In this document: in pieces, positions 9,819 through 29,810 of the stretch | How the letters are laid out: the number at the start of each line of letters is the position of its first letter | Numbering within the stretch: the stretch's first letter is position 1 | From: a virus | IMG/VR virus record: IMGVR_UViG_3300037258_000517 | Coordinates: 1-44,643 of that record | Length of the DNA stretch: 44,643 nt | Direction: 5' to 3' (one strand) | Translations under genes and position numbers: made by a program | The notes under the pieces: generated by a model | What the model was told of the DNA's origin: nothing | Databases searched by the model: none | The model's input: only the letters and a program-made list of their open reading frames with translations

Positions 9819-9842
9819 AGCCCCACCTCCACCGCCAGATAT

Positions 9843-9989: not shown

Positions 9990-9998
9990 TTCATTACC

Positions 9999-10325: not shown

Positions 10326-10398
10326 CCCGACTTCGTTGCCATCCGTGTATGCGCTCAATACTAGCTTATTGTTAGCAAGGTGCTAACTGATTGTCACC

Positions 10399-13122
10399 TT
10401 ATGGCCCTGATGGCGCGGGATTAGGCGGATTGCCCGTGGTACACCCGCTGCCGACGCTATCGCAGCCGCAGCCCGAACTGGTCGCCGGGTTGTAGCAATA
10501 GTTCTGGCTCCAGGTGCCGCCCTCGCCCTCTAGGGTAAACTCGCCGCCCGCATTAACAAACTCATTGGTATTGTGCGGACAGGTCGGCTGGCTATTGCCG
10601 CCTGCGTCCATGATGTTGCCGGTGGCCTCGCAGGACGTTCCTGGGCGATGAAGGGTGCAGTAACCATCCAGCCCGCCAAACCCGCCGCACCACTGGTAGT
10701 AATACCCAACGCCATAGTGGACGTAGATATAGTTATAGTCGTTAAAGTACGTCCCTACCTGGGTAGATCCCGATTCCATCTCATTGCCGAAACGGCAATC
10801 CTTGTAATAGTTGTGCGCGATATGAGAGTTCGTGACGTTATCCGAAGTCGCACCATACAGAGCGCAGCTATCAAAGGTGTTCCAGATCATGCTGGCGTTC
10901 GAGCAATCGGGACTGCCGCTGCTACCGCAAATCGCTTCTACTCCAGCCTGCCCCTGAGTATTCGTCACCAAATTGTCTTCAAACGTCACATTCGATGCGT
11001 GCTCGATCAGGAACGGGAATGAACTACCTTGCGGCAATCCGCCGGGACAGCCGACACCGGTACAGCCGCCATAGCCAAAGCTGGGGTTCTGGCCCGGCTG
11101 ACCATTCGTGCCATTAAAGATGCAGTTGCTTTGGGTCACGTCGTGTCCGACGCCCCCATTATTCGGGCCGCTCACCTCAAACGAGGCATATCCGGGATTA
11201 TTCGCAGTCGGATTAAATATGATCGTCTGCGGATTAGCACACTGAACATCGGTATAGGGCGGGATAAAGAAGGTGCTCGTCATGTCGCATTGCGTACCCG
11301 TGATCTGCACTCCCTTGCGGTTATTGCTAGTGCCCCCCGCCCCCGCCGCAGTGGTTAGGCGTCCTTCGTCGCCTGAGTTATTTTGGCAAGGAACCGTGAC
11401 CATGTTCGATGCATTGAGCGTCGGAAGCGTTGTCCCGCCCGCCCCATAGGTCACGGAGTTGAAGTTGCAGCCACCCGCCGCTCGCGCCGACGTACTGCAA
11501 GCGAATGAAGTGCTAAACGTGCCCGATGGTGCCGGAGTTGGCGTGGGAGTCGGCGATGCTTGTGAGTTTGCTACCTCGGTCCACTTGGTGCCTGTCGAGA
11601 CGGCGCGACAGATATTACTCGTTGCCCCGCCGTAGCTAGGGGTCGTGCCTTGGGAGCAGGGCGAGGCGACGTTGGTCACGACCGTCGTCTGCCCTAACGT
11701 GCCGTTGCCATAACTCGACGACAAGAACTGCGCCGAGATGGGCGGTAGCATGCTGCCGACCGATTGAGACGCCAACTGTACGCCGCTGCTGAACTGTACC
11801 AGCAGCGCGTGATCGTTCAGGGTCAGCGGCACCGATGAGACATTGGAATAGGATGCGGTCGGGGTGGTCCCTTGCGTTATGTCGTAGGCGGCGACATGGG
11901 AGTATGTCGCGCCTAGGTTAACGGTAATAGGTGTTGAGGTTTCGCTGGCAAAAGACTCGCCCCAGACCGCAAGAACGTAACTTCCATTTGATTTCTGGAA
12001 AAGCTGGCTATAGCCAGTGGACGGCAGGCCCGTGACCGTCACCGGCAAGGTATTCGGCGTAAAGCCCGACGAGGTGTCGGCGAGAATGCTGGTCAGATTA
12101 TGGGTATAGACGCCCATCAAGGTTGCATTGCCGGCGTCAGCCTCGTCGCCATTGACGTTGAAGAAGCCCCACCCCGAATCGTCGTTGAACATCAGATAGA
12201 CGAAGGTGTGGGAGAATCCCAACTGATAGGCGTCGAGGTACACATCAGTCAGCAGCTTGCCTTGCGCCGCCTGCCCGATATTCGCGGTGTTTATGTTCCA
12301 GCCGGTCTCGGTGGTTTCCTTGGGTCGGTCGTTCTGGCCGGTAGATGCACCCGCGAAGCCCTTATTCCAGGTGTTGCCCCAGTACTCGCCACATAGATCC
12401 CAAGGACCGCCTGAGCATACAGTCTCCGCTAGGCGCGCGTGATTATTCTCTAATGTCGTGCCCGCGCTGCCGTTGCCCTGAACGTAGTTGTGTATGTTGG
12501 CGGTATCGGCGTAGACCGTGCCATCCGGCATCACCAAACCACTACCGCTCGGGATGGTCAGCCATTGCACGCCGACGTTATTCGGCTCGGCTCCCGGCGA
12601 AGTCATGCCGAGCACCGGAAAGTTCTTCAGTGCGTTGTCGCCCTTAACCATTGAGTAAAGGGCGGTCTGAAACTGCGCACAGGGCAGGAACGTCGTATTG
12701 ATGTTGCACTGGGTGCCGTTGTAAGTGAAGGGGAAATTATTAGGCTCGTTCGGCCCCTCAGCCTGCAAATACGCGCCGCACCCTGCTAGCTGATCCCACT
12801 CTGCCTGTGTATCGGAGACGTTATTCGGGTCGCTGTTGACGACAGGTAGCTCATCAACCAGCGCGCCTGTGGCCGTGTGGATATTGCACAGGTCTAGTCG
12901 GCCGGGAGAGCCCGATGAGGTAGAGGCGTCGTCGCGAATGTTACGAATGCCTAAATAGCCAATACCATTAATGACGCTCTGTGGCGTGTTCAGCCCTTGA
13001 ATGACGTGCGTCGCCGCACCCATCGTGTTCAGAAAGTCGTTGGCACGCACCGCTGTCACTGCCATCGTCTGCGTGGCGTAGCACAGCCAGAGCAGCGGCA
13101 GGTATTTCAGGATACCGGTCAT
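10399..13122 (-). CDS. Tailspike-like: clan GH-A glycosidase domain plus beta-helix, with signal peptide
   Basis: 907 residues from ATG 13122, which overlaps the previous stop as ATGA. Residues 1-20 are a signal peptide ending TQTMA. About 25-420 resemble a GH39-like (beta/alpha)8 glycosidase: GPNEPNN gives acid/base candidate E126 and TTETGWN nucleophile candidate E272, followed by a beta-sandwich. A linker with PTPTPTPAPSG precedes a C-terminal region rich in Asn, Gly and Cys resembling a right-handed beta-helix. Such proteins bind and cut polysaccharide receptors. The signal peptide is unexpected for a phage tailspike. Confidence 0.65.
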   Translation of the reverse strand: MTGILKYLPLLWLCYATQTMAVTAVRANDFLNTMGAATHVIQGLNTPQSVINGIGYLGIRNIRDDASTSSGSPGRLDLCNIHTATGALVDELPVVNSDPNNVSDTQAEWDQLAGCGAYLQAEGPNEPNNFPFTYNGTQCNINTTFLPCAQFQTALYSMVKGDNALKNFPVLGMTSPGAEPNNVGVQWLTIPSGSGLVMPDGTVYADTANIHNYVQGNGSAGTTLENNHARLAETVCSGGPWDLCGEYWGNTWNKGFAGASTGQNDRPKETTETGWNINTANIGQAAQGKLLTDVYLDAYQLGFSHTFVYLMFNDDSGWGFFNVNGDEADAGNATLMGVYTHNLTSILADTSSGFTPNTLPVTVTGLPSTGYSQLFQKSNGSYVLAVWGESFASETSTPITVNLGATYSHVAAYDITQGTTPTASYSNVSSVPLTLNDHALLVQFSSGVQLASQSVGSMLPPISAQFLSSSYGNGTLGQTTVVTNVASPCSQGTTPSYGGATSNICRAVSTGTKWTEVANSQASPTPTPTPAPSGTFSTSFACSTSARAAGGCNFNSVTYGAGGTTLPTLNASNMVTVPCQNNSGDEGRLTTAAGAGGTSNNRKGVQITGTQCDMTSTFFIPPYTDVQCANPQTIIFNPTANNPGYASFEVSGPNNGGVGHDVTQSNCIFNGTNGQPGQNPSFGYGGCTGVGCPGGLPQGSSFPFLIEHASNVTFEDNLVTNTQGQAGVEAICGSSGSPDCSNASMIWNTFDSCALYGATSDNVTNSHIAHNYYKDCRFGNEMESGSTQVGTYFNDYNYIYVHYGVGYYYQWCGGFGGLDGYCTLHRPGTSCEATGNIMDAGGNSQPTCPHNTNEFVNAGGEFTLEGEGGTWSQNYCYNPATSSGCGCDSVGSGCTTGNPPNPAPSGP

Positions 13123-13256
13123 CGACAACCAGCCACATACTCCGCCGTGTCGGACGCCGTACAAGTAAACGTGAAGGTTGATGGCTGTGTGCCGGTAAAT
13201 CCACACAAGCATATCGCCAGTGACAACCCGACTATATATTTGACTATTCTCAGCAT
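13119..13256 (-). CDS. 45-aa signal-peptide ORF, remnant or leader of a fibre gene
   Basis: Encodes MLRIVKYIVGLSLAICLCGF plus a short Thr/Cys tail. The first 26 residues duplicate the N-terminus of the gene at 15269. Its start overlaps the upstream stop as ATGCTGA, and its stop overlaps the tailspike ATG as ATGA, so it is probably translated. Most likely a fibre gene that kept its signal and lost its body. Confidence 0.5.
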   Translation of the reverse strand: MLRIVKYIVGLSLAICLCGFTGTQPSTFTFTCTASDTAEYVAGCR

Positions 13257-13259
13257 CCG
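13183..13259. repeat. 77-bp direct repeat, copy 1
   Basis: Identical to 15196-15272 except for one base. Covers the start codon and signal-peptide coding region of two minus-strand genes. Confidence 0.9.
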
Positions 13260-14044
13260 CCCCCCGATTCTATCCAGTTCGTTCCGTTCGACCAAAGCTC
13301 GCACGCGGTCGATCCACCGCTGGTGTAGGTCGTGCCTGAAGTGCATAGCGTCGAATCCGACACACATAATCGCGCATGGTTGTGGGCAGATGCGGCAGGA
13401 ACCGCCGTTCCCGCTGCCGAATAGACAGTGTTGAAGAACATCACTGTCCCAATTCCCACGCCTTGGGTTGTGCCGAATGACGCAACCACGGTGGCGCTGC
13501 TGCCGTTACCCGGGCCGTCTACAATATTAACGACGCCAGTCGTTCCGGTGCCATATTGGTTCTCCCCTATGTCGACGTTGCCTGTGCTCCCCGATCGAGC
13601 TCCCAAATGGAGACATGAGCCGTTACCCGCAAAATTCAGCAAATCGGCGTTGCAAATATCTTCCCACGCTTGTCCGTAGCCGGTGTCACCGGGCGCGCCG
13701 TTTGGGCCGACGTCCAAGGCAGTCACCTTAGTGGCTGTCGTTGACCTAAATAGAGGAACCCCGAACGAGAGATCACCGTTAGGGTCGCGGGAACTGAGGC
13801 TAAACCCACTAGTGTTCGTCCCAATCGCGGTGTCAATCTGAAGATTGCCGGTAGTAATTAAAAAGTCGTGTGACGAATCGGTAAGAAGGGTCGAATTGCC
13901 GGAGGCGGTATTCGTTCCAGTAAATGACGGAATCTGGAATTGCGAGCCAGTTAGACTTCCACCGCTGCTGCTCCCAGGTGTTCCCTGGAAACCACATAGG
14001 AATACTACGATCAGCGTAGTGAGTATGATGCGAACTACTTTCAT
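13250..14044 (-). CDS. Fibre-like protein with signal sequence
   Basis: 264 residues from ATG 14044 (TGATG overlap). The N-terminus MKVVRIILTTLIVVFLCGFQ is a signal sequence related to the duplicated one downstream. The body is Gly/Ser/Thr/Asn-rich with beta-type repeats and ends in CELWSNGTNWIESGGGC, the 'SNGTxW' ending typical of phage fibre domains. It probably forms part of a tail fibre or adhesin. Confidence 0.55.
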   Translation of the reverse strand: MKVVRIILTTLIVVFLCGFQGTPGSSSGGSLTGSQFQIPSFTGTNTASGNSTLLTDSSHDFLITTGNLQIDTAIGTNTSGFSLSSRDPNGDLSFGVPLFRSTTATKVTALDVGPNGAPGDTGYGQAWEDICNADLLNFAGNGSCLHLGARSGSTGNVDIGENQYGTGTTGVVNIVDGPGNGSSATVVASFGTTQGVGIGTVMFFNTVYSAAGTAVPAASAHNHARLCVSDSTLCTSGTTYTSGGSTACELWSNGTNWIESGGGC

Positions 14045-14367
14045 CAATAACCCAATGTCGCGAAAATTCCTTCCGGCACTCCGCCCGGCGCGAGAATCGG
14101 AACAGCTACCGTCGCCCAATCATCGGAGATATCCATCGTTGCTGAGGCCGACGAAGTGTGAGTAACACCGACTTGGTCGAGCACAGCAAAACTCGCTGAG
14201 AATGGAGCCACGTCACCGTTGAAATTAAGCAGAGTGGTCCACGGCGATCCCGACGGAGTAATCGTCGCTATACCAAATCCGCCCACGCCGGCCGTTTGGG
14301 CAGACGCGACGCCCGCTACTGATAGCCACAGCGCGAGAACGATGACGGTAAAGCTGTGAAGTCTCAT
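14044..14367 (-). CDS. Small secreted fibre-associated protein
   Basis: 107 residues. Signal peptide MRLHSFTVIVLALWLSVAGVASA cleaved before QTAG. The C-terminal VPEGIFATLGY resembles the end of the 716-residue protein at 18356 (PGGIYATLSY), suggesting a shared assembly or adhesion module. No catalytic motif. Confidence 0.5.
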   Translation of the reverse strand: MRLHSFTVIVLALWLSVAGVASAQTAGVGGFGIATITPSGSPWTTLLNFNGDVAPFSASFAVLDQVGVTHTSSASATMDISDDWATVAVPILAPGGVPEGIFATLGY

Positions 14368-14369
14368 AC

Positions 14370-15269
14370 TTAATGCATCATTACGCCGGCACCACCGAAG
14401 ATCTGCGTCACCGTGCCAGAGGATTCGATCAGCGGGCGTGCCACGCCGTAGCCCGCGCCGAGCATCGCCGAGTTGGGGCCGGCTAGTACAATCGGCAGCG
14501 GATTAGTCGTCGAACCACTGGTTCCCTGCCCCTGCGCACACAACACCGTAAATTCACTCGCCGAATAACTGCCGCTCACCGGGGCTCCGATGATGGGATT
14601 AACTGCCGCTGACGTGTTGCCAAGCTTGAACGTGCCATCGACGGACGTGCACTGAGCCAAGCCGTTGACGGCTATTTCTGAAGCCGCGCCAGTGGCCGTA
14701 CCTGTCCAAGTGACCGCATAGCTGCCGGACTCGGTGCCCGTTACTACGCGGGAACATAACACCGCCTGAGATTGATTGGTGCCATCGGTCAAGTTTCCGC
14801 CCGTTATCAGCGAGGTCCAGCCCGACGGACAGCTAATAATCGTGGTCGGCTTGATTACCGCACCGCCGCATAGAAACAAACATTGATTCGCCGAAATGCC
14901 GCTGACGGTATTTATCGATTGCGTAGTCTCCGAGCCAGTTGGGACCGCCACCGTCGGCACTCCGGCTATGCTCACTTGGGGTAATTGCTGAATCGGCAGG
15001 TTGCCCGTTGTGATATTCGATGCGCTGAGGCTCGTGTTGCCGCTCAGCGTCAGGCTCGATCCGAACGTTGAACTGGTTAGCGCATTGCCCTGCGAATTGA
15101 CGACCATACAATTCAGCGATGCTCCAGTCTGCGTACAGGCGGAAAAGTCGCCCGCACCTGCGGTGATATTGGTTCCGCTGCCGCTGCTGCTTGAGGGCTG
15201 TGTGCCGGTAAATCCACACAAGCATATCGCCAGTGACAACCCGACTATGTATTTGACTATTCTCAGCAT
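14370..15269 (-). CDS. Fibre-like protein carrying the duplicated signal sequence
   Basis: 299 residues from ATG 15269, overlapping the upstream stop as ATGCTGA. Signal MLRIVKYIVGLSLAICLCGF then a Ser/Gly linker. The body has beta-repeat composition with six or more Cys (SACTQTGASLNC-type spacing, CLFLCGG), which suggests disulfides. Ends in a hydrophobic GAGVMMH. Part of the fibre cluster; not assigned to a family. Confidence 0.52.
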   Translation of the reverse strand: MLRIVKYIVGLSLAICLCGFTGTQPSSSSGSGTNITAGAGDFSACTQTGASLNCMVVNSQGNALTSSTFGSSLTLSGNTSLSASNITTGNLPIQQLPQVSIAGVPTVAVPTGSETTQSINTVSGISANQCLFLCGGAVIKPTTIISCPSGWTSLITGGNLTDGTNQSQAVLCSRVVTGTESGSYAVTWTGTATGAASEIAVNGLAQCTSVDGTFKLGNTSAAVNPIIGAPVSGSYSASEFTVLCAQGQGTSGSTTNPLPIVLAGPNSAMLGAGYGVARPLIESSGTVTQIFGGAGVMMH

Positions 15270-15272
15270 CCG
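15196..15272. repeat. 77-bp direct repeat, copy 2
   Basis: The partner of 13183-13259, one mismatch in 77. It includes the conserved ATGCTGA start/stop overlap. Confidence 0.9.
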
Positions 15273-16204
15273 ACCCATGCACTCCCGTTTGAACACACAG
15301 GACATTGAACAGAACCACTACCCGATGGCGCCGACCCCGCCGTACACGCACCCACATTCTCCACTACCGTCTGACATCCCGCCGCTGGCACTGGATAAAG
15401 GCCGAGCAGCCCTAGAGTGATCGGCGGGTACTGGCAGATATTCCCCACGCCCGGCCCATTAGGACCGATCGCCTGACCTGTGACGGGCGGCGTGGGAATA
15501 AACCCGAGAATCATGCCTGCGGTGGGCGATGATGTGACGGTCCAGCGCAAGCCATAAGCCGCCGCGCTGGTCACAAGCTGATAGCCGCCGACGAGGGTCT
15601 CGCCGCCGCTGCTTGAGGTCTGCCCCTGATTGGTAAAGGCGGTCGGCGTGCCGCCGCCGGATCCATAATCGACCAGCCCCGACGGTGTTTGGACGCTATC
15701 GGTAATGCCGCCTGCGATAAGCACTTCCTGTTGCGCGCTGCCCGAGGCATTGAGCACGCCCGACTGGATCAGGGTTTGCCCCGTGGTGTAGGTCGTGGTC
15801 GCAAAGCCCGCGGTATCGACCGAAGGCACGAGCCCCATTCCTGACCATTCCGATACGCTCAAGCCCTCAAAGCAGCCGCTAGTCGGGACAGTAAGGGTGA
15901 CTGTGGTCGAACCTGAATTGGCCGTCGGAACCCAGTAGTAACCGATACCTGGTCCGGTCTGAAGCGCAGCCGCCACTTGGTAACTATTCGTGTTGTTGTC
16001 GGCGACGCTGGTGATGCTGGAACAGCCCGTGCGCGCGATGACGACCAGCATATCCTTGGCTGTGACCGAACTGCCAAGCGTGCAGGCAACCGTATTTGCG
16101 CCGCTGCTAACTACCACATTGGCGCAGTCCTGCACCTTGGCCGGAGCCGCAAAGGCGGGCAGCGCCAAGCCAAGCCAGATTAGAGCGGCAATTAGGTAGC
16201 GCAT
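15263..16204 (-). CDS. Secreted fibre-like protein
   Basis: 313 residues. Signal MRYLIAALIWLGLALPAFA before APAKV. Cys-containing beta-rich body (VQDCANVVV, TVACTLGSS, TGCSSITSV) similar in style to the N-terminal repeats of the 716-residue protein at 18356. The ending CPVCSNGSAWVGC is a fibre-tip-type motif. Likely an adhesin or fibre component. Confidence 0.55.
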   Translation of the reverse strand: MRYLIAALIWLGLALPAFAAPAKVQDCANVVVSSGANTVACTLGSSVTAKDMLVVIARTGCSSITSVADNNTNSYQVAAALQTGPGIGYYWVPTANSGSTTVTLTVPTSGCFEGLSVSEWSGMGLVPSVDTAGFATTTYTTGQTLIQSGVLNASGSAQQEVLIAGGITDSVQTPSGLVDYGSGGGTPTAFTNQGQTSSSGGETLVGGYQLVTSAAAYGLRWTVTSSPTAGMILGFIPTPPVTGQAIGPNGPGVGNICQYPPITLGLLGLYPVPAAGCQTVVENVGACTAGSAPSGSGSVQCPVCSNGSAWVGC

Positions 16205-16205
16205 C

Positions 16206-18356
16206 TCAAAATCCGTGAATTTCCGCCCATCCGGTGTAGGTCCCGGTCATATTGTCGGGAAAGGTAAAAGTCGTATTTGTGCTGGCACTCAAAGGCACCG
16301 AGTTGCCGACGAAAAAAGGCGTATTGGTGAAGGCTGTCCCTGGCGTGCCGCCGCCCGAGCCTGTCGCATAGACGCACGTCTGACTAGGGCCGCCCGCGTT
16401 CTGGTAGGCATTGAAGTAGACCAACGCGACCTTGTAATTGGTGCCTTGAATGGGCTCATAGACGGTCGCCGTGCCCGTCGTGATGCCGGTGATATTGCAG
16501 ACGGCAGCGTTGATCGTGCCGCCGCAGCCCGCCCCGCTTCCCGAGACCGCGCCTGACGAGTTGGCCTGCAAGCACTGAGTAGAGCCCGTGACGCCCGTAT
16601 CGGTCAGGGACGAGAAGGAGCCCGCCGCTGGCGTGACGCCGCCGATGGCCGGTGGAGTCGTGAAGTTTTGCGTGGCAAAGGTGCCGAGCCCGAGATTGGT
16701 GCGCGCGGTAGTGACGCTGGCCAAATCGCCTAGATTGCTGGCGATCGCGAGTGCGCCGATATTGTTGGCCGCGGTCGCCCCTGCTGCTGCCGCTCCGGTG
16801 CCGCCCTGCGCCACGCTCAAGGGAGTAGTCAAGCCGGTTAGCGAGGTGATGTCGGAATTGGCGCCGGATTTAGCAGCGCTCAGATTGGTCCGTGCCGTTG
16901 TCGCACTGGCTACATCGGATAGGTTACTTGCTTCGGCCAGAGCTCCAATGTTGTTTGCCGCAGTCGCGCCCGCTGACGTAGCGCCCGTACCGCCGCGAGC
17001 GACTGTCACCGGGATAACCAAGCTGACGGTCGAACCCGCCGCGGTCAGACCCGTTCCCGCAGTATTGAAGCCGCCCGATCCGGGGGCTGTTACGCCGCCA
17101 CCCGGATTCCACGACGTACCCTGATAGGTGACGGTACAAACCGTCGACCCGCTGCCTGACGTGACCGGCGTACCGGCAACGCAGCCGGAATTGGAATCAC
17201 TGATGATGCAGGTTGTGCCCTGCGCCGGGGTCACGGGCAAGGTCGAGTAGGTCAACTCGCCGGGACATTGCGTACCGCCTTGCGCAACGCTAAGTGCGGT
17301 CGTTAGTCCCGACAAAGACGTAATGTCGCTGTTTGCGCCGAGCGCCGCAGCGCCAATATTGTGCGCAGCGGTTGCACCCGCCGACGTGGCATTGGTGCCG
17401 CCATTGGCCACCGGCAGCGGGCTATTAAGCGAAATGGTGGGGGTGGCGCCGCCGGTCGAAGCTAAAGGTGCGGAGGCATTTACTGCAGTCACGCCTCCCG
17501 TCGCCGCGCTGACGGCGCCGCCTGCGGGAAGCCATGAAGACCCTAGAAAGACGCACTCACAACTCGACGTTCCGCTGCCGTTACACGCCGTGCCTGCGGT
17601 ACAGGATGAGCTATTGGTAACGGTGCAAATGGTGCCTTGCGCAGGTGAGCCGGGCAGGCTGGCGAACGGTCCCGCGCTCGAGCATTGAGTGCCGCCTTGG
17701 GCGACTGTTAGCGGGGTTGTCAGCCCCGCGAGTGAGGTAATGTCGGAATTTGCACCTTGAGCAGCGGCGCCGATGTTATGAGCGGCCGTGGCACCGGCGC
17801 TGGTTGCTCCGGTGCCGCCATTGGCTACCGCTACAGGGACGATTAACGAAATGCTCTTTGTCGGGAAACTACCGGCAACAACAATGCCCGTTCCGGCCGT
17901 CTCGCCCGGCGATGCGCTTCCGGTTCCACCATTGGCGATCGGCAACGGACTCGTGATCGTGATATTTGGAGTCGCGCCGCCCGATGAAGAGAGTGGAGAC
18001 GAGGCGGTGACGCTGGATACTCCGCCGCCTGAACTGCTACCGTTGGCCGCCGCGGTGATCTGCCCGAGTTGATTTACCGTGAGGTTGGTATTGGTATAGT
18101 TCCCCGGCACGACCGCCGTGGCCGCAATGTTGAGCGCGCCGCCACTGATCACCAAGCCGGTGCCGACCGTCAGGCCGCCGCAAATTCCGCCATTGTTATA
18201 CTGAAGCTGATTGTTGAGCCCGCAAGGGACAGGCGTGCCCCCACCGCCACCTCCGCCACCGCCCGATCCAAGGCCGCCGATAATGACTATATCCGCGCTG
18301 GCCAGGCGAGCGACAAGAAGCAGCGCGCACGTTATGGTGAGTACGATTCGTTTCAT
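16206..18356 (-). CDS. Tail-fibre protein with repeats and signal peptide
   Basis: 716 residues from ATG 18356 (TGATG overlap). Signal MKRIVLTITCALLLVARLASA before DIVIIGG and a Gly9 run. Repeated phage-fibre blocks follow: LPxANGGTGATSAGATAAHNIGA, GANSDITSLxGLTTPLxVAQGGT, and NLSDVASATTARTNL near residues 450-560. CxFLGSSW and CTVTYQGTSW inserts with Cys clusters (SCTAGTACNGSG) interrupt them. The fibre motifs leave little doubt about phage-fibre ancestry; a cleavable signal peptide is highly unusual in this setting. Confidence 0.8.
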   Translation of the reverse strand: MKRIVLTITCALLLVARLASADIVIIGGLGSGGGGGGGGGTPVPCGLNNQLQYNNGGICGGLTVGTGLVISGGALNIAATAVVPGNYTNTNLTVNQLGQITAAANGSSSGGGVSSVTASSPLSSSGGATPNITITSPLPIANGGTGSASPGETAGTGIVVAGSFPTKSISLIVPVAVANGGTGATSAGATAAHNIGAAAQGANSDITSLAGLTTPLTVAQGGTQCSSAGPFASLPGSPAQGTICTVTNSSSCTAGTACNGSGTSSCECVFLGSSWLPAGGAVSAATGGVTAVNASAPLASTGGATPTISLNSPLPVANGGTNATSAGATAAHNIGAAALGANSDITSLSGLTTALSVAQGGTQCPGELTYSTLPVTPAQGTTCIISDSNSGCVAGTPVTSGSGSTVCTVTYQGTSWNPGGGVTAPGSGGFNTAGTGLTAAGSTVSLVIPVTVARGGTGATSAGATAANNIGALAEASNLSDVASATTARTNLSAAKSGANSDITSLTGLTTPLSVAQGGTGAAAAGATAANNIGALAIASNLGDLASVTTARTNLGLGTFATQNFTTPPAIGGVTPAAGSFSSLTDTGVTGSTQCLQANSSGAVSGSGAGCGGTINAAVCNITGITTGTATVYEPIQGTNYKVALVYFNAYQNAGGPSQTCVYATGSGGGTPGTAFTNTPFFVGNSVPLSASTNTTFTFPDNMTGTYTGWAEIHGF

Positions 18357-20506
18357 CAATAACTCAAAGTTGCGTAGATTCCTCCAGGGATGACCGGACC
18401 AATCAGGGAAAACTCACTTACTGCGGGATTGTCGCCCGAGCCGGGCGTAGTTCCTGTCGGGGTGTAGCTGCCGTGAGCCGTCTGCCATCCCATCCAGTCA
18501 TTCAGGCCAGTAGGTGCCGCCGTGGTGCTCGACTTGACGACGAAGGTGTCGCCTGAATTACCGACGATGCCGGTGCCGCCGACTGCGGAGACATCGGCGC
18601 CCGCCCATACGTCGAAGGTCGGGCCTGCCGCGGTAAGGGTGCAGCCGGTCTGAGATGGACCAGCAGGGCCGTGAATAGATGTGGCGCAGGTATTGCCCAA
18701 GGTCGCGTTGCGAAAACTCGAATCGATACCGTAGGACACGACGCAACTCGTAGTCGGCTCGGGTTGAGTCCAAAACTCAGTGGAACTGCCGTTATTGATG
18801 ATGAGGTCGGAGACCGATGAGTTGATCGCGTTGCTGGTATTATTCGAGCCGGATGCGATCGCCGGAGCGGGCAGGCCGAACGGGTTGATCCACACGGGAT
18901 TAGCGTTGAAGCTGTCGGGCTCGTCGGTGGTTATGTAGAGGTCGCCACTAATAGAGCCGTAAGGAATGAAATGCGCCGTGACCGAGCAGGGCGCCGACCC
19001 GGTGATGGTGCTGGTGCTTGCCGGATTGTAGGTATTCGCCAGGATGCCCGCCGCGACGTTGGTTAGCGCCGGGGCGGCAGTAAGCTTAAAGGCTTGCGTG
19101 AACGCCGCCCAACCGTTGCTGGTAGCTTTCTTCTGGAAGGTGCCATGTAAGCCGGTAGGATCCGAAGTCGGCTGGATGTTCGCTGTCATCAGGCCCACGC
19201 CGGCGCCGTGCGATCCGGCATTGGTGGGATCGTCCTCGTTGCCATCGGTAAAGCTGGTATCTGAAATCCACCAGTTGCCGCCCGAGATCGCGCCCGCTCC
19301 AAACAGGTTCAGGTAATTGTGAATAATCAGATCCCCTGCCTGAGACGGCGTGACTGATGGTGCTGTATCGGGCAAGACCGTGCCGCCCCACGTGGTTATC
19401 GATACGGCATCGAGGTATGGCGCCGAGCCTGATGTATCAACGCTGTAGAAGACGCCACATTGCGTAGTGGTTTCTTCGTCGGCGTCGGCCCATGTCCAGG
19501 TATAGGTATTGGTGTACTCGTTCGTGCCGGCCTTTTTGACGTAGCTGCACATGACCGCGTTATGGACTGGCGGCGAGGTGCTGGTGACACAGGCGGTCGC
19601 GCCATTGGTACTAAGCGCGGGAGTCCAGCCTGCCGGAGCGCTGCTAGGACCGACTGGGGTAACGCCGGTGTCGCGCGAGATGTTGCAGACCATCAAGTCG
19701 CCGGATTGCACCCACGGATCGGGCGAATAGCTAAAGCTCGTGCTGGAGCCTTCGATAAAGGTGAAATCGCGATAGGGCAGGAAATGGTTGGTGGCCGCTG
19801 CTACTGGCGTAGTCGCCTTGAAGTAAGTCGAGAACAGTATTTGCGCCGGATTGGAACAGCCGCCCGCCGTACCCGCGCGATACACAGCCGCTTTGGGATG
19901 CAGATGGTCCCAGTTGATGCCAAAGGTATCGACATCCACTAAGCCCGAGATAGTTTGCCCAATGCCGTAATCCCATCCGGCTAGCTGACCTGGCGTGTAC
20001 TGATAGGGCACGTTGTTCGTACAACTGGCCTGAATGCCGGTGTTCATCACCAGGTCGTGATCGTAAGTCAGGCTAGGTGGAGTAATGGTCGCGCTCTGCG
20101 CCGTGCTCGCCGCGACAGTGGTTTTGGCGTTGGAATCGACAACGGTCGAGATGTCGACATTGCCGAGCGCGTACATGGTCGAATTAACGCCGCTGCTGGA
20201 ACCATTGCACTGAAAGTTGTAAGAGGCGCTGGCACCGGCGGCCAGGCGCTGGCAGGTCACTCCTGAAAGCGCAGAACCGACGACTGCCGCATCGATCTGG
20301 GTAAAGCCCGAAGGACAGGAACAGCCGCTACCGTTGGCCACATCGGCCGATGCGTAGAGCACGGTGCCGCCCGAGGGCGTGGTGATAGAGCCGGACTGCG
20401 CCGACGCCATGTTGACGACGTAGGGCTCTGTCGCCGCATTGGCAAGGGTCGCCAGAAGTAGGAACAGGCTACCCGTTATAGCCGAGGCTAGGCGGCAAGA
20501 AATCAT
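18356..20506 (-). CDS. Large secreted fibre/adhesin-like protein
   Basis: 716 residues from ATG 20506. Signal MISCRLASAITGSLFLLLATLANA before ATEPYV. Two or more repeats of a beta-sandwich-like unit with conserved SGDLxI(H/C)N, W and paired Cys. It contains many Thr/Ser/Asn residues and ends IPGGIYATLSY. Probably a multi-domain fibre or surface adhesin. The 5' end overlaps the upstream gene by 38 bp. Confidence 0.58.
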   Translation of the reverse strand: MISCRLASAITGSLFLLLATLANAATEPYVVNMASAQSGSITTPSGGTVLYASADVANGSGCSCPSGFTQIDAAVVGSALSGVTCQRLAAGASASYNFQCNGSSSGVNSTMYALGNVDISTVVDSNAKTTVAASTAQSATITPPSLTYDHDLVMNTGIQASCTNNVPYQYTPGQLAGWDYGIGQTISGLVDVDTFGINWDHLHPKAAVYRAGTAGGCSNPAQILFSTYFKATTPVAAATNHFLPYRDFTFIEGSSTSFSYSPDPWVQSGDLMVCNISRDTGVTPVGPSSAPAGWTPALSTNGATACVTSTSPPVHNAVMCSYVKKAGTNEYTNTYTWTWADADEETTTQCGVFYSVDTSGSAPYLDAVSITTWGGTVLPDTAPSVTPSQAGDLIIHNYLNLFGAGAISGGNWWISDTSFTDGNEDDPTNAGSHGAGVGLMTANIQPTSDPTGLHGTFQKKATSNGWAAFTQAFKLTAAPALTNVAAGILANTYNPASTSTITGSAPCSVTAHFIPYGSISGDLYITTDEPDSFNANPVWINPFGLPAPAIASGSNNTSNAINSSVSDLIINNGSSTEFWTQPEPTTSCVVSYGIDSSFRNATLGNTCATSIHGPAGPSQTGCTLTAAGPTFDVWAGADVSAVGGTGIVGNSGDTFVVKSSTTAAPTGLNDWMGWQTAHGSYTPTGTTPGSGDNPAVSEFSLIGPVIPGGIYATLSY

Positions 20507-21167: not shown

Positions 21168-21170
21168 TCC

Positions 21171-21578
21171 TCAGTGACAGTAAGAGTACCCAACGTTGGC
21201 GTTACCCGACATTCCGATCGCGCTTATGGTCTGCGTCGGAACGGCGCCGATATTATTGGCGGTGCCCAGATTCGAGTAGATATAGGGATTGCCCGCCGCC
21301 AGGACGAATCCGTTGCACACGCCGTTTGTGACCGTCGCCGTTGTTCCCTGCGCGATGCAGACCGAAGAACTCGAAGCAGGCTGATTCTGGATCAGGAGAC
21401 AACGACGAATGCCATCAGCGGCGAGTAGTTGTATCGGCGAGGTCGTAACCTGATAGCCGTAAGTCTTGCCGCTGATGCAGGGTGTGGTCGCGTCGGCGCA
21501 AGCCACCGACTGCGCGTGTGCGAACTGCGGGACGGCCAGTCCCAGAGCAAGCACGATTAGAACTAGAGCCTTCTTCAT
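21171..21578 (-). CDS. Small secreted protein with phage decoration-like fold
   Basis: 135 residues. Signal MKKALVLIVLALGLAVPQFAHA before QSVAC. The body (VTTSPIQLLAADGIRRCLLIQNQ ... VLAAGNPYIYS) follows the pattern of small phage structural proteins usually written TxxQTILAANxxRxxLLIQN...IxAGGS, but with extra Cys and a signal peptide. A relative lies at 28961-29344. Confidence 0.6.
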   Translation of the reverse strand: MKKALVLIVLALGLAVPQFAHAQSVACADATTPCISGKTYGYQVTTSPIQLLAADGIRRCLLIQNQPASSSSVCIAQGTTATVTNGVCNGFVLAAGNPYIYSNLGTANNIGAVPTQTISAIGMSGNANVGYSYCH

Positions 21579-21784
21579 CGATGAGACCTCCTCAGACGGC
21601 GCTTGGCACGTCGGCCGATGTGTTTACGCTTCGCTGCTACATGCTTCGATTCGGGCGAATTGATGGGTCGCCCTTCGTTAATCCGTTTGTTGAGCGTGGC
21701 GTAATATATTTTCTTGCCTTCTTTGCCGCCGTACTCATCGGCAAAGTGACGTTCCATTTTCTCGTCCGATTCACTGAGTGGCAT
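21575..21784 (-). CDS. Small basic phage protein
   Basis: 69 residues from ATG 21784, with GGAG six bases upstream. DEKMERHFADEYGGKEGKKIYYATLNKRINEG is a helical block seen in small phage proteins near ejection or portal genes. The C-terminus is strongly basic (KRKHIGRRAKRRLRRSHR). Nucleic-acid binding is possible. Confidence 0.5.
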   Translation of the reverse strand: MPLSESDEKMERHFADEYGGKEGKKIYYATLNKRINEGRPINSPESKHVAAKRKHIGRRAKRRLRRSHR

Positions 21785-23831
21785 AAGCGTCTCCATCGTC
21801 GGACGGTTGAACTTGTCGGAGTTCTTCGAGAGCCGCACCCATGCCAATTCGGGCGATTGCCGATGATGCGCGCCGAATATTCTTGTCAGTGATCGCCGAG
21901 AGAAATGCCGCGCGGGTTTTGTCGTTGCGCATGGCCGCTTTCCAAATCATGCTACCCGCCGCCCCAATGAATAGACTTGCGGGGACTCCACCGGGCATCT
22001 TGTGCAGAATGCCAAATCCCATTGCCGCCTCGATCGGAGCCATGATTCCGAGGTAGCGAGCGGCCCAACCCATCTTGCCTTTGGCGAATCCGCCTTCAGC
22101 CCATTTCTTCAACGATTCGTCTAGTGCTTGTCGGCCTGATGCCATCGACAGCAGTTTCTGTTCTTCAGGTTGGAGCTTCGACAAGACCGCCGAATACTGA
22201 TCTATAAAGGCGCGGCCTTCGGGAGTCGCCATCGCGTCTTTAAGTCCATCTTGCACGGCGGCGCGCCCCATTGGTGATGCGGCTTGGGCGGCAAGGCGCC
22301 GCTCGGCGGCCAACGTAGAAATCCAATCGCCAAGATGGCCATATCGGCCGGGATAAAGCTTCGCTAAAGTCCCATCGCGATCCAGTTTCGTTAAGGTGCC
22401 GATCGTCTTGGCAACGTCACCTTCGGAGCGCGGGACGATCGCATCTGCTACCGAACGTCGGATATGTTCCAACGCTTCAGGTTGCGCGGTCGCAGAATCT
22501 ACTATCCGAGCGATGACGTGCGGCGGCTGTTTGAGCAGCTTGTCGCCTAAAGCGCCGGGCGTCTGCGTGCGGCTACCCCGCATCAAGTCGCCGAAGTCGG
22601 TATAGAACGATCGGGTTTGGGCCTTGAGCGCCAAATGTTGTTGCTTTTCGGCAGGACTCAGGAATGCGCTGTCGCCAAGTTCATCGAGGCTGCCTTGAGC
22701 CGAACGGAACACACGGCTGGCTACTGACTTGTCGGTGGCGCTTGCGGACGGATTGCGTAGTATCTGCTGCGCACGAGACTGCATCGTCAACAACTGGTCG
22801 ACCGTCGGTCCCGGTGCTTTCTTCTCGTTGTTCTTAGGACCACCGCGCCCCTGAATAGTGCTCGCACCTTCTGCGGGAGCAATTTCGGCCTTGGCGTGAG
22901 CGAAATAGCCTCGTAACCCCTCTTTCTCTTTAGGCGACATCTTGGCTAGGTCTTCCGCCGAGAAGTGCGCCAATAACGGGTCAGGGCTGCCCAGTTCAAT
23001 CGCGTCGTTGAGTAGCTTGCGGGTCGGCGCGCCCAACTGAGAATCACGGCCTTGCGTCTCTAGCTGAGTACGCAGGTCGATTAGCGGCGCGGCTAAGGTC
23101 TCCGCGTTTGTGGTGTTCTTCTTGTAGGGCGCGAAGAGCCTTTCGTAGCCCGAATTGATGTCGCGGTGGATGCTATTTATTGAATGCCATAACGCGTTCT
23201 GGGAGTCGCGCGTGCCCTGATTGATTATTTCGGGCGGCGCCTTTGGATCCGTGCCACCTAGTATCGTGCGAATCCGCTTGATCGCATCGCTCTCGGCGAT
23301 GAGCTTCGCTCCACCCGCTACTTTCTGTTCAGCAATGTCGGAAGCTTTCGTATCTCTATCAGCGGTCATCTGGGCTGCCTCGGCACGAGCCTTGGGCAAT
23401 CCCGATGCCGCACTCGCGAGACCGCTGGCAGCTTCGGCGAGCGGCTGGAATGCGACACCCTCGTCGAACCGTAGCGCTTCACCTTTTAGGCTTAGACCTG
23501 ATGGCTGACCGCGCAACTTGCGCCCGACGCCTTGTGCTATGTCACTAGCTACAGTCTCCGTCCCGGTTATTCCGGCACGAATGCCCCGATAGGCATTGCG
23601 CTCAAGGAATCCCGCCCCTTCGCGAGTCTCAGGGCCGCCGTAGAGGTAAAGCGGGAGAGTAGCTACATCCGTGATTGCTTCAGACTTGCTCTTGGGAGCG
23701 AACTGAATACCAGTCAGATCGGGCGAGACTTTGAGCAGGCCGCCAGATACCGCGCCCAACTCCGCATTCTCCAAGTCTTCTTGGCTAATGGGCGTCGGCG
23801 CGCCGCTTTTATTTACAGTGAGCAGCGGCAT
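21771..23831 (-). CDS. Large internal virion / ejection-like protein
   Basis: 686 residues, almost wholly helical and charged. Ala-rich, with a hydrophobic segment near the C-terminus (VPASLFIGAAGSMIWKAAM). Size, helical content and position between fibre genes and other Ala/Gly-rich virion genes fit a podovirus-type ejection or internal core protein. No enzymatic motif seen. Confidence 0.5.
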   Translation of the reverse strand: MPLLTVNKSGAPTPISQEDLENAELGAVSGGLLKVSPDLTGIQFAPKSKSEAITDVATLPLYLYGGPETREGAGFLERNAYRGIRAGITGTETVASDIAQGVGRKLRGQPSGLSLKGEALRFDEGVAFQPLAEAASGLASAASGLPKARAEAAQMTADRDTKASDIAEQKVAGGAKLIAESDAIKRIRTILGGTDPKAPPEIINQGTRDSQNALWHSINSIHRDINSGYERLFAPYKKNTTNAETLAAPLIDLRTQLETQGRDSQLGAPTRKLLNDAIELGSPDPLLAHFSAEDLAKMSPKEKEGLRGYFAHAKAEIAPAEGASTIQGRGGPKNNEKKAPGPTVDQLLTMQSRAQQILRNPSASATDKSVASRVFRSAQGSLDELGDSAFLSPAEKQQHLALKAQTRSFYTDFGDLMRGSRTQTPGALGDKLLKQPPHVIARIVDSATAQPEALEHIRRSVADAIVPRSEGDVAKTIGTLTKLDRDGTLAKLYPGRYGHLGDWISTLAAERRLAAQAASPMGRAAVQDGLKDAMATPEGRAFIDQYSAVLSKLQPEEQKLLSMASGRQALDESLKKWAEGGFAKGKMGWAARYLGIMAPIEAAMGFGILHKMPGGVPASLFIGAAGSMIWKAAMRNDKTRAAFLSAITDKNIRRASSAIARIGMGAALEELRQVQPSDDGDAYATQ

Positions 23832-25659: not shown

Positions 25660-26087
25660 TAGCTATTCTCGAACCCTGCGCCATAAGGGTCTTGCTGAGG
25701 GCTGGCTCCATAGGACTGCATCGCTTGCTGGACGGCTGCTTGCCCTGTCGGCGCGCCGCCACCGCCAAATCCACTAGTGGGCGATAGCCCTGTGCCGGGC
25801 GAGTTTCCGGGGATGCCCGCTACGAAGGGGTTATTGTTCGACGCCGTACTGCTAGTCGTCTGCTGTAGTCCCTTAGGTAATCCGAGCGCCTGAGTCGCGT
25901 CTTGGAACAAGGGCGCCAAGCCTTCAGCGAGCGTTCCCGCCGTGGCCGCCGCGGTTCCGAGTCCCGCCGCAGTCCCAGCGGTCAGTCCGGTTGCTCCCGC
26001 GACCGCGCCTGCGCCTGCGGTTGTCGCTCCCGCTGTACCCAAGGCAGTAACGATTGCTGGAATAGCCAGTGCTATCGCTTGCGGCAT
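25659..26087 (-). CDS. Ala/Gly-rich hydrophobic virion protein
   Basis: 142 residues from ATG 26087 (TAATG). The first 80 residues are Ala/Gly/Thr-rich and hydrophobic (ALAIPAIVTALGTAGATTAG), the style of membrane-inserting phage ejection proteins. A polar Gly/Gln tail follows. Confidence 0.42.
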   Translation of the reverse strand: MPQAIALAIPAIVTALGTAGATTAGAGAVAGATGLTAGTAAGLGTAAATAGTLAEGLAPLFQDATQALGLPKGLQQTTSSTASNNNPFVAGIPGNSPGTGLSPTSGFGGGGAPTGQAAVQQAMQSYGASPQQDPYGAGFENS

Positions 26088-26467
26088 TAGCGCCACGCCT
26101 CCATGCGTCCGACCACGATCGCGCCATTCATGGGAAACTCGCGCGCCCCGCGGCGACGGCACATCTCACGCAATTCTTTTTCGCCCTCCGAGTCGCTGCC
26201 AATCCACGTCAGATACATTCGATAGCCACGCCCCTCGCACTCGCGTATCGCGGTACGCAATAGAGCGTTGATGCAGGAGAGCGGCGCCACGTCGAGACGA
26301 TGGAGACGGATCGGCATAACCAGCCCGTGCCCGCGCACTGCGACTAGGTAAGCTACGATCACATCGAACTGGTCACGCGCTACCCAAATCCACGCATCCT
26401 CCGCATCGGGCAGGAGCAATGCGCCATCTGGTAGCTGTTCGCCGTCTCTCAGGTGGTCGACGATCAT
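26087..26467 (-). CDS. GNAT-like acetyltransferase-type protein
   Basis: 126 residues. WIWVARDQFDVIVAYLVAVRGHG, LHRLDVAPLSCINALLRTAI and ECEGRGYRMYLTW follow the beta-alpha order of short phage GNAT-type proteins found beside tail genes. The acetyl-CoA loop is weak, so catalytic activity is uncertain. ATGA- and TAATG-coupled to its neighbours. Confidence 0.5.
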   Translation of the reverse strand: MIVDHLRDGEQLPDGALLLPDAEDAWIWVARDQFDVIVAYLVAVRGHGLVMPIRLHRLDVAPLSCINALLRTAIRECEGRGYRMYLTWIGSDSEGEKELREMCRRRGAREFPMNGAIVVGRMEAWR

Positions 26468-28353
26468 GCGGCTTGCCCAAAAGGCCGGGGCGGTTTGATG
26501 ATTAATTGATAGTCAATTCCTTCTATCGTCACCTTCCCCGTTCCTGAGTATTGAGCGACGATCGACGGCGCCGTCTCGGCAATATCGAACGACACCGCCA
26601 AGTCTTGATCACCTTCGTAACTAGCCTGCCCAACCACGTTAGGGGCGTTGATGCCTGAGCTATTGGGACCGGCGGGTGCCAGCGCATCGTTGGCTGCGGG
26701 TAATGCAGCCGCGCCGAGTGACGCTGCCATTGTCATCGTTCCCGAGGTCAGCGCGTGACCGCGTACCATTGATCGACGGAAGTAGGCGCGTGAGCCAGGA
26801 TCGCCTACCGCTGGAGGTGTGAAGCTCCAAGGAATGGCTACACCGTCTGCCGTTAGATCGCCGCTCTGAATGCGTCGGACGTTGTAGGCGCTCTGCCCGA
26901 GTGACAACGATCCATCACCCACATAGGTCGTGACTGGTCCCGCGCCGGGCACGCGGATTTGATTGATCGCACTCCAGCCCTGACCGCCCCACTGGCTTAC
27001 ATCAAGAATGAGCCAACCTTTGAGGACAAGATCGTAACAAAGGACACGCTGGATGATGCCGTTGGACCCGACCGTCGGCACGCCAAGGATATACATGGGC
27101 GGATTGACGACGAGCGCGGCTCGTGAATTTTGAACATTGGCCCAGTCGATCGCGGGAATATCAGCACGCCCAAAGATGTACGGATTGATTTCCGCGGAGA
27201 TGAGCTGGTCATGCACGCCATCAAATAACCCCACTCCAAGATGGGTCAGCCGCGCTACGCCCGATCCAGTACAAAACACCGGCGTCCGGCAGGCGACGCA
27301 GCCCATGTCGGACTGTACCTGCTGAATGGCAAAGTTCTGTGCGCCGAATACTCCCGTCACTTGGTAAGTCGAGAAATTCTTGAACAGAACCAGGGAGCCG
27401 GTGGGCGAGATGCCCGCCTCAGCAATGGTGAAAGTGGCTATGCCGTTGCCGTAGTCTCCGTCGTCCCGATTGACGTAGGCCATGTTTACCGACGGCCACG
27501 AATTGGGGTTGTTGACGGTGCTCTGGCGAATGACGCTGGGACCGTCTAACTGACTGACGCTGTTGTTTGGCGCCGTATTCCATAGCCACAACGCGCCGGC
27601 ATAGACGATGCCGTGTGCGCCTGCCCAAGGAACCGCCTGCGCGCCGAGATTGGAGGTGGCCGCAATGTACTGCCAAACCAACTGATTATCGTCGATGTGC
27701 GCGCCCACATCCGTAACTGGTATCGCTGACCAGTTCGGCTCCGTATTCCCCGAGAAACCCGAGCCAGTAACAGGGTTATTACTTGAGGTCTGGGAGGTGT
27801 TGGACCCGGTGTTCGTGGAGAAGGTCAGCGATAGGCCAATAACCTGAAAGGTGCGCGAGCCGAGCGTGACGATCTTGTCGCCAATCTGGTAGAGCGTATT
27901 CGCCTGCCAGCCGGGCTGAGTAGTCAGATCGCTGACTGCGCTTCCGTTGAAGTTGTAGGTGGCCTGATTATTCCCGTTGGTGATAATGCCGACGCCGCCG
28001 AACATGAAGAACTGCGGATGCGTCCAGCCCGCCGTCAGCGCGCCATTCGTGATTAGCGTCGCCGGATTAGTGTTGAAATTGTAGATGCCGTACTGGTTGG
28101 TGCCAGAGATGGCGAGCGCAACGAGAGTAGACGAGAAACTGTCGGGTTCGTAATTGCCGAGCGTAATGATCGGCCCGGCACCGCCAGGTATGGCGGATTG
28201 TATTAGAGAGCCGTCACAAGTCTGTAGCGCGCCACGCTCGCCCATGAGCATGTTGAGCGCTTGCAGCACCGCGCCCTTGGGCACGGAGAAGCGGTTGGAG
28301 ACGGCAATTACGCCCTTTGCCCAACCCTTCTGTGATGTGACTTTCCACGCCAT
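26464..28353 (-). CDS. Tail nozzle-like, beta-rich structural protein
   Basis: 629 residues, start MAWKVTSQKGWAKGVIAVSN. RFSVPKGAVLQALNMLMGERGALQT and FGGVGIITNGNNQATYNFNG resemble the beta-propeller proteins that close podovirus tails (for example P22 gp10-like). No signal peptide, unlike the fibre genes. Position between the ejection-type genes and the head-proximal block supports a tail role. Confidence 0.5.
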   Translation of the reverse strand: MAWKVTSQKGWAKGVIAVSNRFSVPKGAVLQALNMLMGERGALQTCDGSLIQSAIPGGAGPIITLGNYEPDSFSSTLVALAISGTNQYGIYNFNTNPATLITNGALTAGWTHPQFFMFGGVGIITNGNNQATYNFNGSAVSDLTTQPGWQANTLYQIGDKIVTLGSRTFQVIGLSLTFSTNTGSNTSQTSSNNPVTGSGFSGNTEPNWSAIPVTDVGAHIDDNQLVWQYIAATSNLGAQAVPWAGAHGIVYAGALWLWNTAPNNSVSQLDGPSVIRQSTVNNPNSWPSVNMAYVNRDDGDYGNGIATFTIAEAGISPTGSLVLFKNFSTYQVTGVFGAQNFAIQQVQSDMGCVACRTPVFCTGSGVARLTHLGVGLFDGVHDQLISAEINPYIFGRADIPAIDWANVQNSRAALVVNPPMYILGVPTVGSNGIIQRVLCYDLVLKGWLILDVSQWGGQGWSAINQIRVPGAGPVTTYVGDGSLSLGQSAYNVRRIQSGDLTADGVAIPWSFTPPAVGDPGSRAYFRRSMVRGHALTSGTMTMAASLGAAALPAANDALAPAGPNSSGINAPNVVGQASYEGDQDLAVSFDIAETAPSIVAQYSGTGKVTIEGIDYQLIIKPPRPFGQAA

Positions 28354-28359
28354 CCATTG

Positions 28360-28515
28360 TTAGCGCCGCGATGCGCGCCTGCGCCCCACTTTGGCCTTCA
28401 ACTTGGCCTTGTCGTTCTTGCGACCCTTATTCACCGCATCCGACATCATCGCCTTCATGTAACTTGGCGGCGGATTGGCGGGTGCGCCCTTGCGTCTTGG
28501 TTGATGTGGTTTCAT
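28360..28515 (-). CDS. Small very basic protein
   Basis: 51 residues. MKPHQPRRKGAPANPPPSYMK and a C-terminal KAKLKAKVGRRRASRR. ATGA overlap with the preceding gene. Probably binds nucleic acid or acts as a virion accessory; no family known. Confidence 0.5.
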   Translation of the reverse strand: MKPHQPRRKGAPANPPPSYMKAMMSDAVNKGRKNDKAKLKAKVGRRRASRR

Positions 28516-28937
28516 CGGCTTTGCATCAGGAAGTTGCAGTTAGTGCTAGTGAAAGTGCTCTGTACCGATGAGCAACAAAACATCGCGCCAGAATTAAACA
28601 CCCAGCCATAATCGCCCCCTACCTGCATGTCGCGGTCTGAGGTGGAACTGATGTTCCAACTCACTCCGCCAATGGGAGTGGCCGAGGCGGTCGGCGTGGC
28701 CGTACCCGTGAATGGCTGCACGTAGACCGTCGAGCCGCTCGTATTCGTCACATGGAAGCCGTAGATGAGTACGGCGCTGGCGGTGGACGGCACCGGAACG
28801 GCACAACAGCCCGCCGCCTTACACGCGGTAATAGTCAGTCCTTCCTGCGGTATCTGGGCGAGTAGCGGAAGCCCGCCGAAGGCCAGCGAGCAGAGAAATC
28901 CGCCCAGAAACAGGAGCGCGATCAAACGCTTCTTCAT
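28512..28937 (-). CDS. Secreted Cys-rich small structural-type protein
   Basis: 141 residues. Signal MKKRLIALLFLGGFLCSLAF through LPLLA before QIPQE. Body with CKAAGCCAVPVP, a central beta domain and MFCCSSVQ. The pattern of paired Cys plus phage-type small beta domain matches the group at 21171 and 28961. Confidence 0.52.
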   Translation of the reverse strand: MKKRLIALLFLGGFLCSLAFGGLPLLAQIPQEGLTITACKAAGCCAVPVPSTASAVLIYGFHVTNTSGSTVYVQPFTGTATPTASATPIGGVSWNISSTSDRDMQVGGDYGWVFNSGAMFCCSSVQSTFTSTNCNFLMQSR

Positions 28938-28960
28938 AACTCAGTTCGCAAACGCCAGTC

Positions 28961-29344
28961 CTAGTAATCGCTGTAGACGATGGTCGTGCCGCCATTGACC
29001 GATATGCAGGCCCAGTCGTTAGCCGGCTGGAGCGACCCCGGCGAACTGCCATTCGGAGGCACGGGCATCGGCGAGCCCGGCAACTCGTAAAAGCCGGTCA
29101 TGCCGATAAAGATGCCGTTTAGAGTCGTCGCCGCATTGCTGGTCTTTTGCGCGCACCAAGCCGGATTATTCCCAATGTTGATCATCAGAATGTAGTTGCG
29201 GTACGTCCCAACATCGTTGGCGAGAACAATCTGCGTTGATGCCGTAGTCACGCTGACCGCGCCAGCGCCCGCATAAGAGGCCCGAGGTGCCGCAAACAGG
29301 AGCGCAGCGAGCGCAAGGCCGATTAAGTATCTGGAGAGTTTCAT
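28961..29344 (-). CDS. Small secreted protein related to 21171 gene
   Basis: 127 residues from ATG 29344 behind GAGGGAAGAA. Signal MKLSRYLIGLALAALLFAA through ASYA before GAGAV. VTTASTQIVLANDVGTYRNYILMINIG repeats the TxxQxxLAxxxxRxxLLI pattern of small phage structural proteins. It ends in TAG. Confidence 0.58.
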   Translation of the reverse strand: MKLSRYLIGLALAALLFAAPRASYAGAGAVSVTTASTQIVLANDVGTYRNYILMINIGNNPAWCAQKTSNAATTLNGIFIGMTGFYELPGSPMPVPPNGSSPGSLQPANDWACISVNGGTTIVYSDY

Positions 29345-29354
29345 TTCTTCCCTC

Positions 29355-29810
29355 TTACTGCTGGGTATAAACCAACACGCCGTTAGTGCCGGTGGTGCTG
29401 GCGCCGGAGAGCAGACACACCGCCTGACTGGCCGGTACTGAGAACTGAGTAGAACCGTTGGGGTTCTGGGTGACAGTACTTGCCGCTGCATAGGCACCGG
29501 TAAACTTAACCGTCGGAGTAGTGCAGGCCGCCGTCAGCCCATACTCAAGCGTCGAGGTGCCGCCGACTGAATTGAGGTAGACGCCGCAGATATTGTAGGA
29601 CTGCCCCGCCGGACTCGGCACACCGAGCAGTCCGGTAGTAGTCGCCGTCGCCGCCGAGATCGGGGCGTATAGATAATTCGCCGGATTCTTGCAGGGGTCG
29701 AAATTGCCAGCGCCATAGCTGGCCTTGGCGGTGGGCGCGATCACACCCGCAAAGTAGCCGACTGCCATTATCACCAGCAGGGGAATTGCTAATCTCAGAT
29801 ACCGTTTCAC
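29355..29810 (-). CDS. Small secreted structural-type protein
   Basis: 151 residues from GTG 29810, with GGAGG five bases upstream. Signal MKRYLRLAIPLLVIMAVGYF through TAKA before SYGAG. Body has four or more Cys (FDPCKNP, NICGVY, AACTTP) and a beta-rich ending (GVLVYTQQ). Member of the same secreted group, placed directly behind the adaptor-like gene. Confidence 0.52.
   Translation of the reverse strand: MKRYLRLAIPLLVIMAVGYFAGVIAPTAKASYGAGNFDPCKNPANYLYAPISAATATTTGLLGVPSPAGQSYNICGVYLNSVGGTSTLEYGLTAACTTPTVKFTGAYAAASTVTQNPNGSTQFSVPASQAVCLLSGASTTGTNGVLVYTQQ

Follow-up and report, generated by a model that had tools for sequence, protein, structure and literature searches.

Signal-bearing, cysteine-rich fibre-type proteins in a clade of short-tailed phages and their possible maturation outside the cytoplasm

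The DNA analyzed here (the window) is a 44.6 kb IMG/VR virus record (IMGVR_UViG_3300037258_000517; 44,643 nucleotides) that carries the late region of a short-tailed phage on its minus strand. The late genes are ordered portal protein (35263-37038), a scaffold-like gene, major capsid protein (31620-32627), an adaptor-like protein (29825-31117), a nozzle-like protein (26464-28353), a small acetyltransferase-like gene (26087-26467; recognized by eye and by position), and ejection-type proteins down to 21771. The portal and capsid proteins were assigned by PHROG. The adaptor, nozzle, and ejection roles come from gene order, weak profiles, and relatives. Thirteen further genes, here called A to M and co-directed with the virion genes, encode proteins with a signal or signal-like N-terminus. 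M, L, and K are small genes between adaptor and nozzle, and the ten genes J to A begin right behind the last ejection-type gene (21771-23831), whose product has neither signal nor cysteine. An initial annotation had proposed Sec signals on these proteins and their export by the phage. All thirteen start codons that it gave open the expected frames, and each gene is real, though B encodes only 45 amino acids.

M (29355-29810, 151 aa) is an exported-type protein with a GTG start, a strong Shine-Dalgarno site (GAGGAGG), the signal MKRYLRLAIPLLVIMAVGYFAGVIAPTAKA followed by S, and 4 cysteines. L (28961-29344, 127 aa, 2 cysteines) has the signal MKLSRYLIGLALAALLFAAPRASYA followed by G, and K (28512-28937, 141 aa) has a signal and then a beta-sandwich with a CC.VPVP core. 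Behind the ejection genes, the signals of J (21171-21578, 135 aa) and I (20469-21167, 232 aa) end in PQFAHA before QSV and STLAHA before QSS, respectively. H (18356-20506, 716 aa, 14 cysteines) is beta-rich, with ATLANA before ATE. G (16206-18356, 716 aa, 16 cysteines) is a tail-fibre repeat protein, with ARLASA before DIV. F (15263-16204, 313 aa, 10 cysteines) has ALPAFA before APA, and D (14044-14367, 107 aa, no cysteine) has AGVASA before QTA. E (14370-15269, 299 aa, 8 cysteines) begins with a hydrophobic, signal-like stretch, MLRIVKYIVGLSLAICLCGFTGT, with no clear site. C (13250-14044, 264 aa, 6 cysteines) has an N-terminus of the same type (FLCGFQGT), and its C-terminal module also occurs in a fibre of the relative G012. 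A (10399-13122, 907 aa, 28 cysteines) combines a glycosidase domain resembling clan GH-A, in which NE and ETG are conserved, with a beta domain, behind a weak signal ending in TQTMA before VTA. B (13119-13256) is a remnant that duplicates the signal region of E (its first 33 codons) and ends in a short tail. It is encoded by an 86-bp direct repeat whose two copies, 97% identical, cover the signal-coding regions of B (13178-13263) and E (15191-15276). At this repeat, signal sequences seem to have been copied from gene to gene.

We found that nearly all of these N-termini score as Sec signals. In place of SignalP we used a rule-based scorer that looks for a positive n-region, an 8-residue uncharged hydrophobic core, and an [AVSTGLCI]-x-[AGSC] site. 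Of 15 known E. coli signals used as a yardstick, it recovered 14. Twelve of the 13 window proteins were positive, ten of them at scores of at least 3.9, B at 3.5, and M at 2.5. A was negative because of proline and tyrosine in its hydrophobic core. Among controls, 0/12 core virion proteins and 2/79 antisense open reading frames (ORFs) were positive. Thus, signals claimed on about thirteen proteins stood for twelve, ten of them strong, and the virion genes described as lacking signals do lack them. The claim of ten clear A-x-A sites did not hold: a strict count at a sensible place gave seven (D, F, G, H, I, J, and M). L, K, and A carry x-x-A sites, and B, C, and E have an unusual [FC]LCGF.GT motif in common; the signals of these last three, like that of A, are weak or atypical. 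Except for B, C, and E, where it is not clear, the proteins have the n-h-c signal with small residues at -3 and -1 typical of substrates of Sec and signal peptidase I. Export as autotransporters or lipoproteins was considered and rejected: no translocator domain and no second membrane segment were seen in the window proteins, and B, C, and E have no canonical lipobox. Published example phage genomes have 0-2 predicted signals each (PMC5723332, PMC4128745).

The cysteines of these proteins provide evidence that does not depend on the signals. Cysteine makes up 2.82% of the mature parts of the 13 window proteins and 0.44% of the core virion set, and the number of cysteines after residue 25 is even in all 13 (zero in one), in agreement with the many paired cysteines noted before. 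We found the same bias among the phage's relatives. Complete signal-bearing proteins of at least 250 aa in the clade had an even number of cysteines in 46 cases and an odd number in 6 (P=5e-9 against a coin toss; through shared descent, the members of the set are not fully independent). In contrast, proteins from these contigs in which no signal was detected were split 46 even to 46 odd. This control still holds some signals missed by the rule, so the contrast is conservative.

To collect relatives (about 100), we searched with the capsid protein, which gave four close relatives, and with the adaptor, which gave eight more distant ones; a capsid alignment gave 98 stretches. Downstream of the adaptor we read 44 contigs. 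Four of them stop short of the slot behind the ejection genes, within or just behind those genes. A long signal-bearing fibre occupies the slot in 39 of the 40 contigs that reach it, or 36 of 37 distinct ones, there being three near-duplicate pairs. The 39 comprise 29 contigs from a first pass, then L123, L132, L137, and L150, then L119 (whose fibre signal scores weakly), L144, and L149, and finally L131, L138, and L152. In several contigs the start codon of the slot fibre overlaps the stop codon of the last ejection gene. All four close relatives (G001-G004) encode homologues of K with signals. The linker of the K homologue contains, in G002 and G004, an inserted glycosidase-like domain that is homologous to A of the window. 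In contig L012, a 247-aa beta-rich protein without a signal (9739-10482, minus strand) adjoins signal-bearing fibres.

Many clade fibres share an N-terminal module. It is about 110 residues long, lies directly behind the predicted cleavage site, and was found in 37 rows of our protein set (34 distinct sequences; a few rows are one protein under two names). Across the wider clade, this conserved module is joined to variable C-terminal bodies. A sequence search of the PDB with the module returned nothing significant. Three cysteine pairs in the module are gained and lost as pairs among the 34 sequences. Cysteines 16 and 47 are both present in 10, both absent in 24, and single in none; 36 and 64 are both present in 4, both absent in 30, and single in none; 75 and 86 are both present in 21, both absent in 12, and single in 1. 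The median pairwise identity of the module is 31%, so this co-variation is not merely close relatedness. Clade signal-bearing fibres have mostly 4-44 cysteines, nearly always an even number, and such even, pairwise conserved cysteines are characteristic of disulfide-bonded extracytoplasmic proteins, which the clade fibres would appear to be.

One relative, G052 (contig L130), has module-containing fibres without signals. Its fibre slot holds two such proteins (9676-13275 and 13823-16303), with no signal upstream and without the usual cysteine pairs of the module. The module begins at residues 2-5 in these fibres, versus 17-36 in the signal-bearing proteins. The comparison suggests that export is not in itself necessary for the fibre's job, and that it occurs together with the module disulfides.

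Several of the protein bodies resemble tail fibres and spikes. In the window, G matches tail-fibre PHROG families, in keeping with the fibre repeats described before. Among the clade members, some (G008, G012, L157, and others) have profile matches to tail-fibre families (to 1e-45) or to tail-spike, K1-lyase_C, and pectate-lyase-like ones, and many match no family. In the late region, their genes follow the ejection genes, the position expected of fibre and spike genes. Based on homology and position, the clade group is fibre- or spike-like, with export signals. No signal-less fibre candidate was found in the window's late region, which, like the position of the module at the mature N-terminus of the clade fibres, would fit docking of the exported proteins on virions. 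The glycosidase structure model for A is of low confidence (pLDDT 39.5) and gave weak, partial matches, the best to PslG and to GH5 and GH30 enzymes; its NE and ETG motifs are invariant in three homologues. For K (pLDDT 78.5), the best viral matches were uncharacterized phage proteins, with a fold match in Ralstonia phage RSK1, and no solved structure matched at E<=0.001. Searches of cultured phages with M, K, A, and G gave no match.

We compared these proteins with known systems. The clade fibres are like Caudoviricetes tail fibres and spikes, including K1-lyase and pectate-lyase-like spikes, in the profile matches of several bodies, in their place behind the ejection genes, and, across the wider clade, in a conserved N-terminal module with variable bodies. 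They differ in having signals and many cysteines; to our knowledge, Caudoviricetes fibres and spikes described so far have no Sec signal, although synthesis without a signal and folding in the cytoplasm are a usual trait of such proteins and not a strict definition. A search of the open-access literature for signal-bearing tail fibres found no report. Other phage proteins do use host Sec, such as Lys44 of fOg44 and the signal-arrest-release (SAR) endolysins (PMC6116005), but these are lysis enzymes. Lom of lambda is signal-exported from a gene that adjoins fibre genes (PMC12309495), but it is an outer-membrane barrel, concerned with host modification and encoded by a single gene. Like the clade fibres, surface-displayed bacterial targets of diversity-generating retroelements (DGRs) are exported ligand-binding proteins, whereas the DGR proteins of phages are reported to have no signal (PMC6199706), as is usual in phages. 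As outgroups we used Myxococcus phage Mx9, Bradyrhizobium phage ppBjS10J-1, and the Manatee Spring phages ct52p938 and ctMlz233, all very distant (major capsid proteins of 22-27% identity). Their late gene order is similar, and Mx9, ppBjS10J-1, and ctMlz233 have the acetyltransferase-like gene behind the nozzle, as do clade members.

Our results make it very probable that the fibre-type proteins of this clade are exported and acquire disulfide bonds, judging from their sequences. The cysteine parity, the paired co-variation, and the 39 of 40 contigs strongly support the export to periplasm or surface proposed in the initial annotation; the roles offered with it (adhesin, decoy, depolymerase, or surface layer) are only possible. 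In the mechanism that we propose, host Sec would export fibre- and spike-type pre-proteins late in infection, signal peptidase I would remove the signal, and host disulfide enzymes would oxidize the exported fibres in the periplasm. Less certainly, heads with adaptor, nozzle, and ejection proteins would be built in the cytoplasm; when lysis proteins break the envelope the two pools would mix, and the conserved module would dock finished fibres on the tail. Fibres that stay free, e.g., the glycosidase-like A, may digest host polysaccharide or block receptors. We consider the chances evenly balanced that the whole chain is correct, from Sec pre-proteins through export and oxidation to docking on virions at lysis. 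We put forward only tentatively that the clade completes its virions outside the cytoplasm in this manner, docking Sec-exported, periplasm-oxidized fibres on fibreless particles at lysis, so that a lysate would draw on up to ten exported fibres. Late docking is feasible in physical terms, since in extracts the particles of P22 and T4 that lack only tail spikes or fibres, respectively, can still take them up.

Several observations weigh against docking or export. Known tail fibres assemble in the cytoplasm. No close cultured relative was found among 50,697 phage records searched, and the 86 late-region coding sequences of the four outgroup phages gave two weak signal matches, neither in a fibre gene. 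The G052 fibre bodies retain 20 and 22 cysteines despite having no signal, so a high, even cysteine count is not strictly tied to export. None of the window proteins J to A contains the module, and their fibre identity thus rests on G, synteny, and relatives.

The results might also indicate that the exported, disulfide-bonded proteins never join the virion. They could act in the envelope or outside the cell as polysaccharide-degrading enzymes, blockers of receptors against superinfection, or free decoys, with the virion binding its host through the nozzle or another protein. The signals and the cysteine pattern fit this alternative, as do the GH-A-like glycosidase in A and in the K homologues of G002 and G004, the great diversity of the bodies, of which a single genome can have as many as ten, and the enlargement of the nozzle to 860-930 aa in several relatives. 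However, the slot is that of ordinary fibres in the outgroup phages, the proteins have tail-fibre and tail-spike homology, G052 has a signal-less version in the same slot, and one conserved N-terminal module with variable bodies is the plan of virion-anchored receptor-binding proteins. These features point rather to virion receptor-binding proteins matured outside the cytoplasm, and we view a purely off-virion role as the main alternative, somewhat less likely than docking.

It is quite improbable that the hydrophobic N-termini stay uncleaved and export nothing, serving instead as anchors inside the virion tail or as membrane contacts at infection. The lack of a normal cleavage site in B, C, and E would fit such anchors, and it also counts against the proposed mechanism. 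In contrast, the signals generally have a charged n-region and small residues at -3 and -1, an xx[AGS]-Q junction occurs in 62/76 cases versus 108/323 controls, oxidized-type cysteine pairs follow directly behind the signal, the predicted cleavage site coincides with the start of the module, and G052 manages without a hydrophobic N-terminus. Comparisons of related sequences also speak for signals: within the signal, nonsynonymous change (pN) was below synonymous change (pS) in four pairs, and in G005 and G006 the signals have diverged and QTTHVNNLQADGNINANG just behind them is identical. Wrong starts, faulty gene calls, or chance hydrophobic stretches, suggested by weak Shine-Dalgarno sites at some starts, have a negligible chance of explaining the data and are refuted for the clade as a whole by the scorer controls, the 39 of 40 contigs, pN below pS, and the 64 sense versus 2 antisense long signal ORFs in 739 kb of relatives.

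Other features of the window were noted. A galactosyltransferase-like domain (Glyco_transf_7C) fused to a sulfotransferase (Sulfotransfer_4; 7421-8929, minus strand) is unusual for a phage and might modify surface polysaccharide. Further signal- or lipoprotein-like ORFs lie outside the annotated interval, at 1178-1630, 1700-1960, and 1957-2805 (plus strand) and at 3405-3800 and 6542-6820 (minus strand); an LGGC lipobox makes that at 3405-3800 a candidate outer spanin. Near the lysis end, inspection by eye suggested a ClpP-like protease at 5080-5703 and, without Pfam support, a papain-like protein at 6817-7524 (both minus strand). A tRNA-Thr (CGT) gene is at 43114-43188 (minus strand). An IS1595/ISXO2-type transposase gene with a zinc ribbon (4011-4940, plus strand) was considered as a clue to the host; its relatives are below 60% identity and occur on plasmids of many phyla. 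A search of genome contigs for a prophage, likewise aimed at the host, found none.

With cysteine parity and co-variation set against an internal 46/46 control, the question can be put directly to the test. Host range depends on fibres and spikes, whose assembly is assumed to take place in the reducing cytoplasm. If our proposal is correct, secreted, disulfide-bonded fibres would be a second assembly route. It would account for the use by phages of stable, disulfide-stapled binders, and it would alter the annotation of such proteins and their expression in laboratory hosts.

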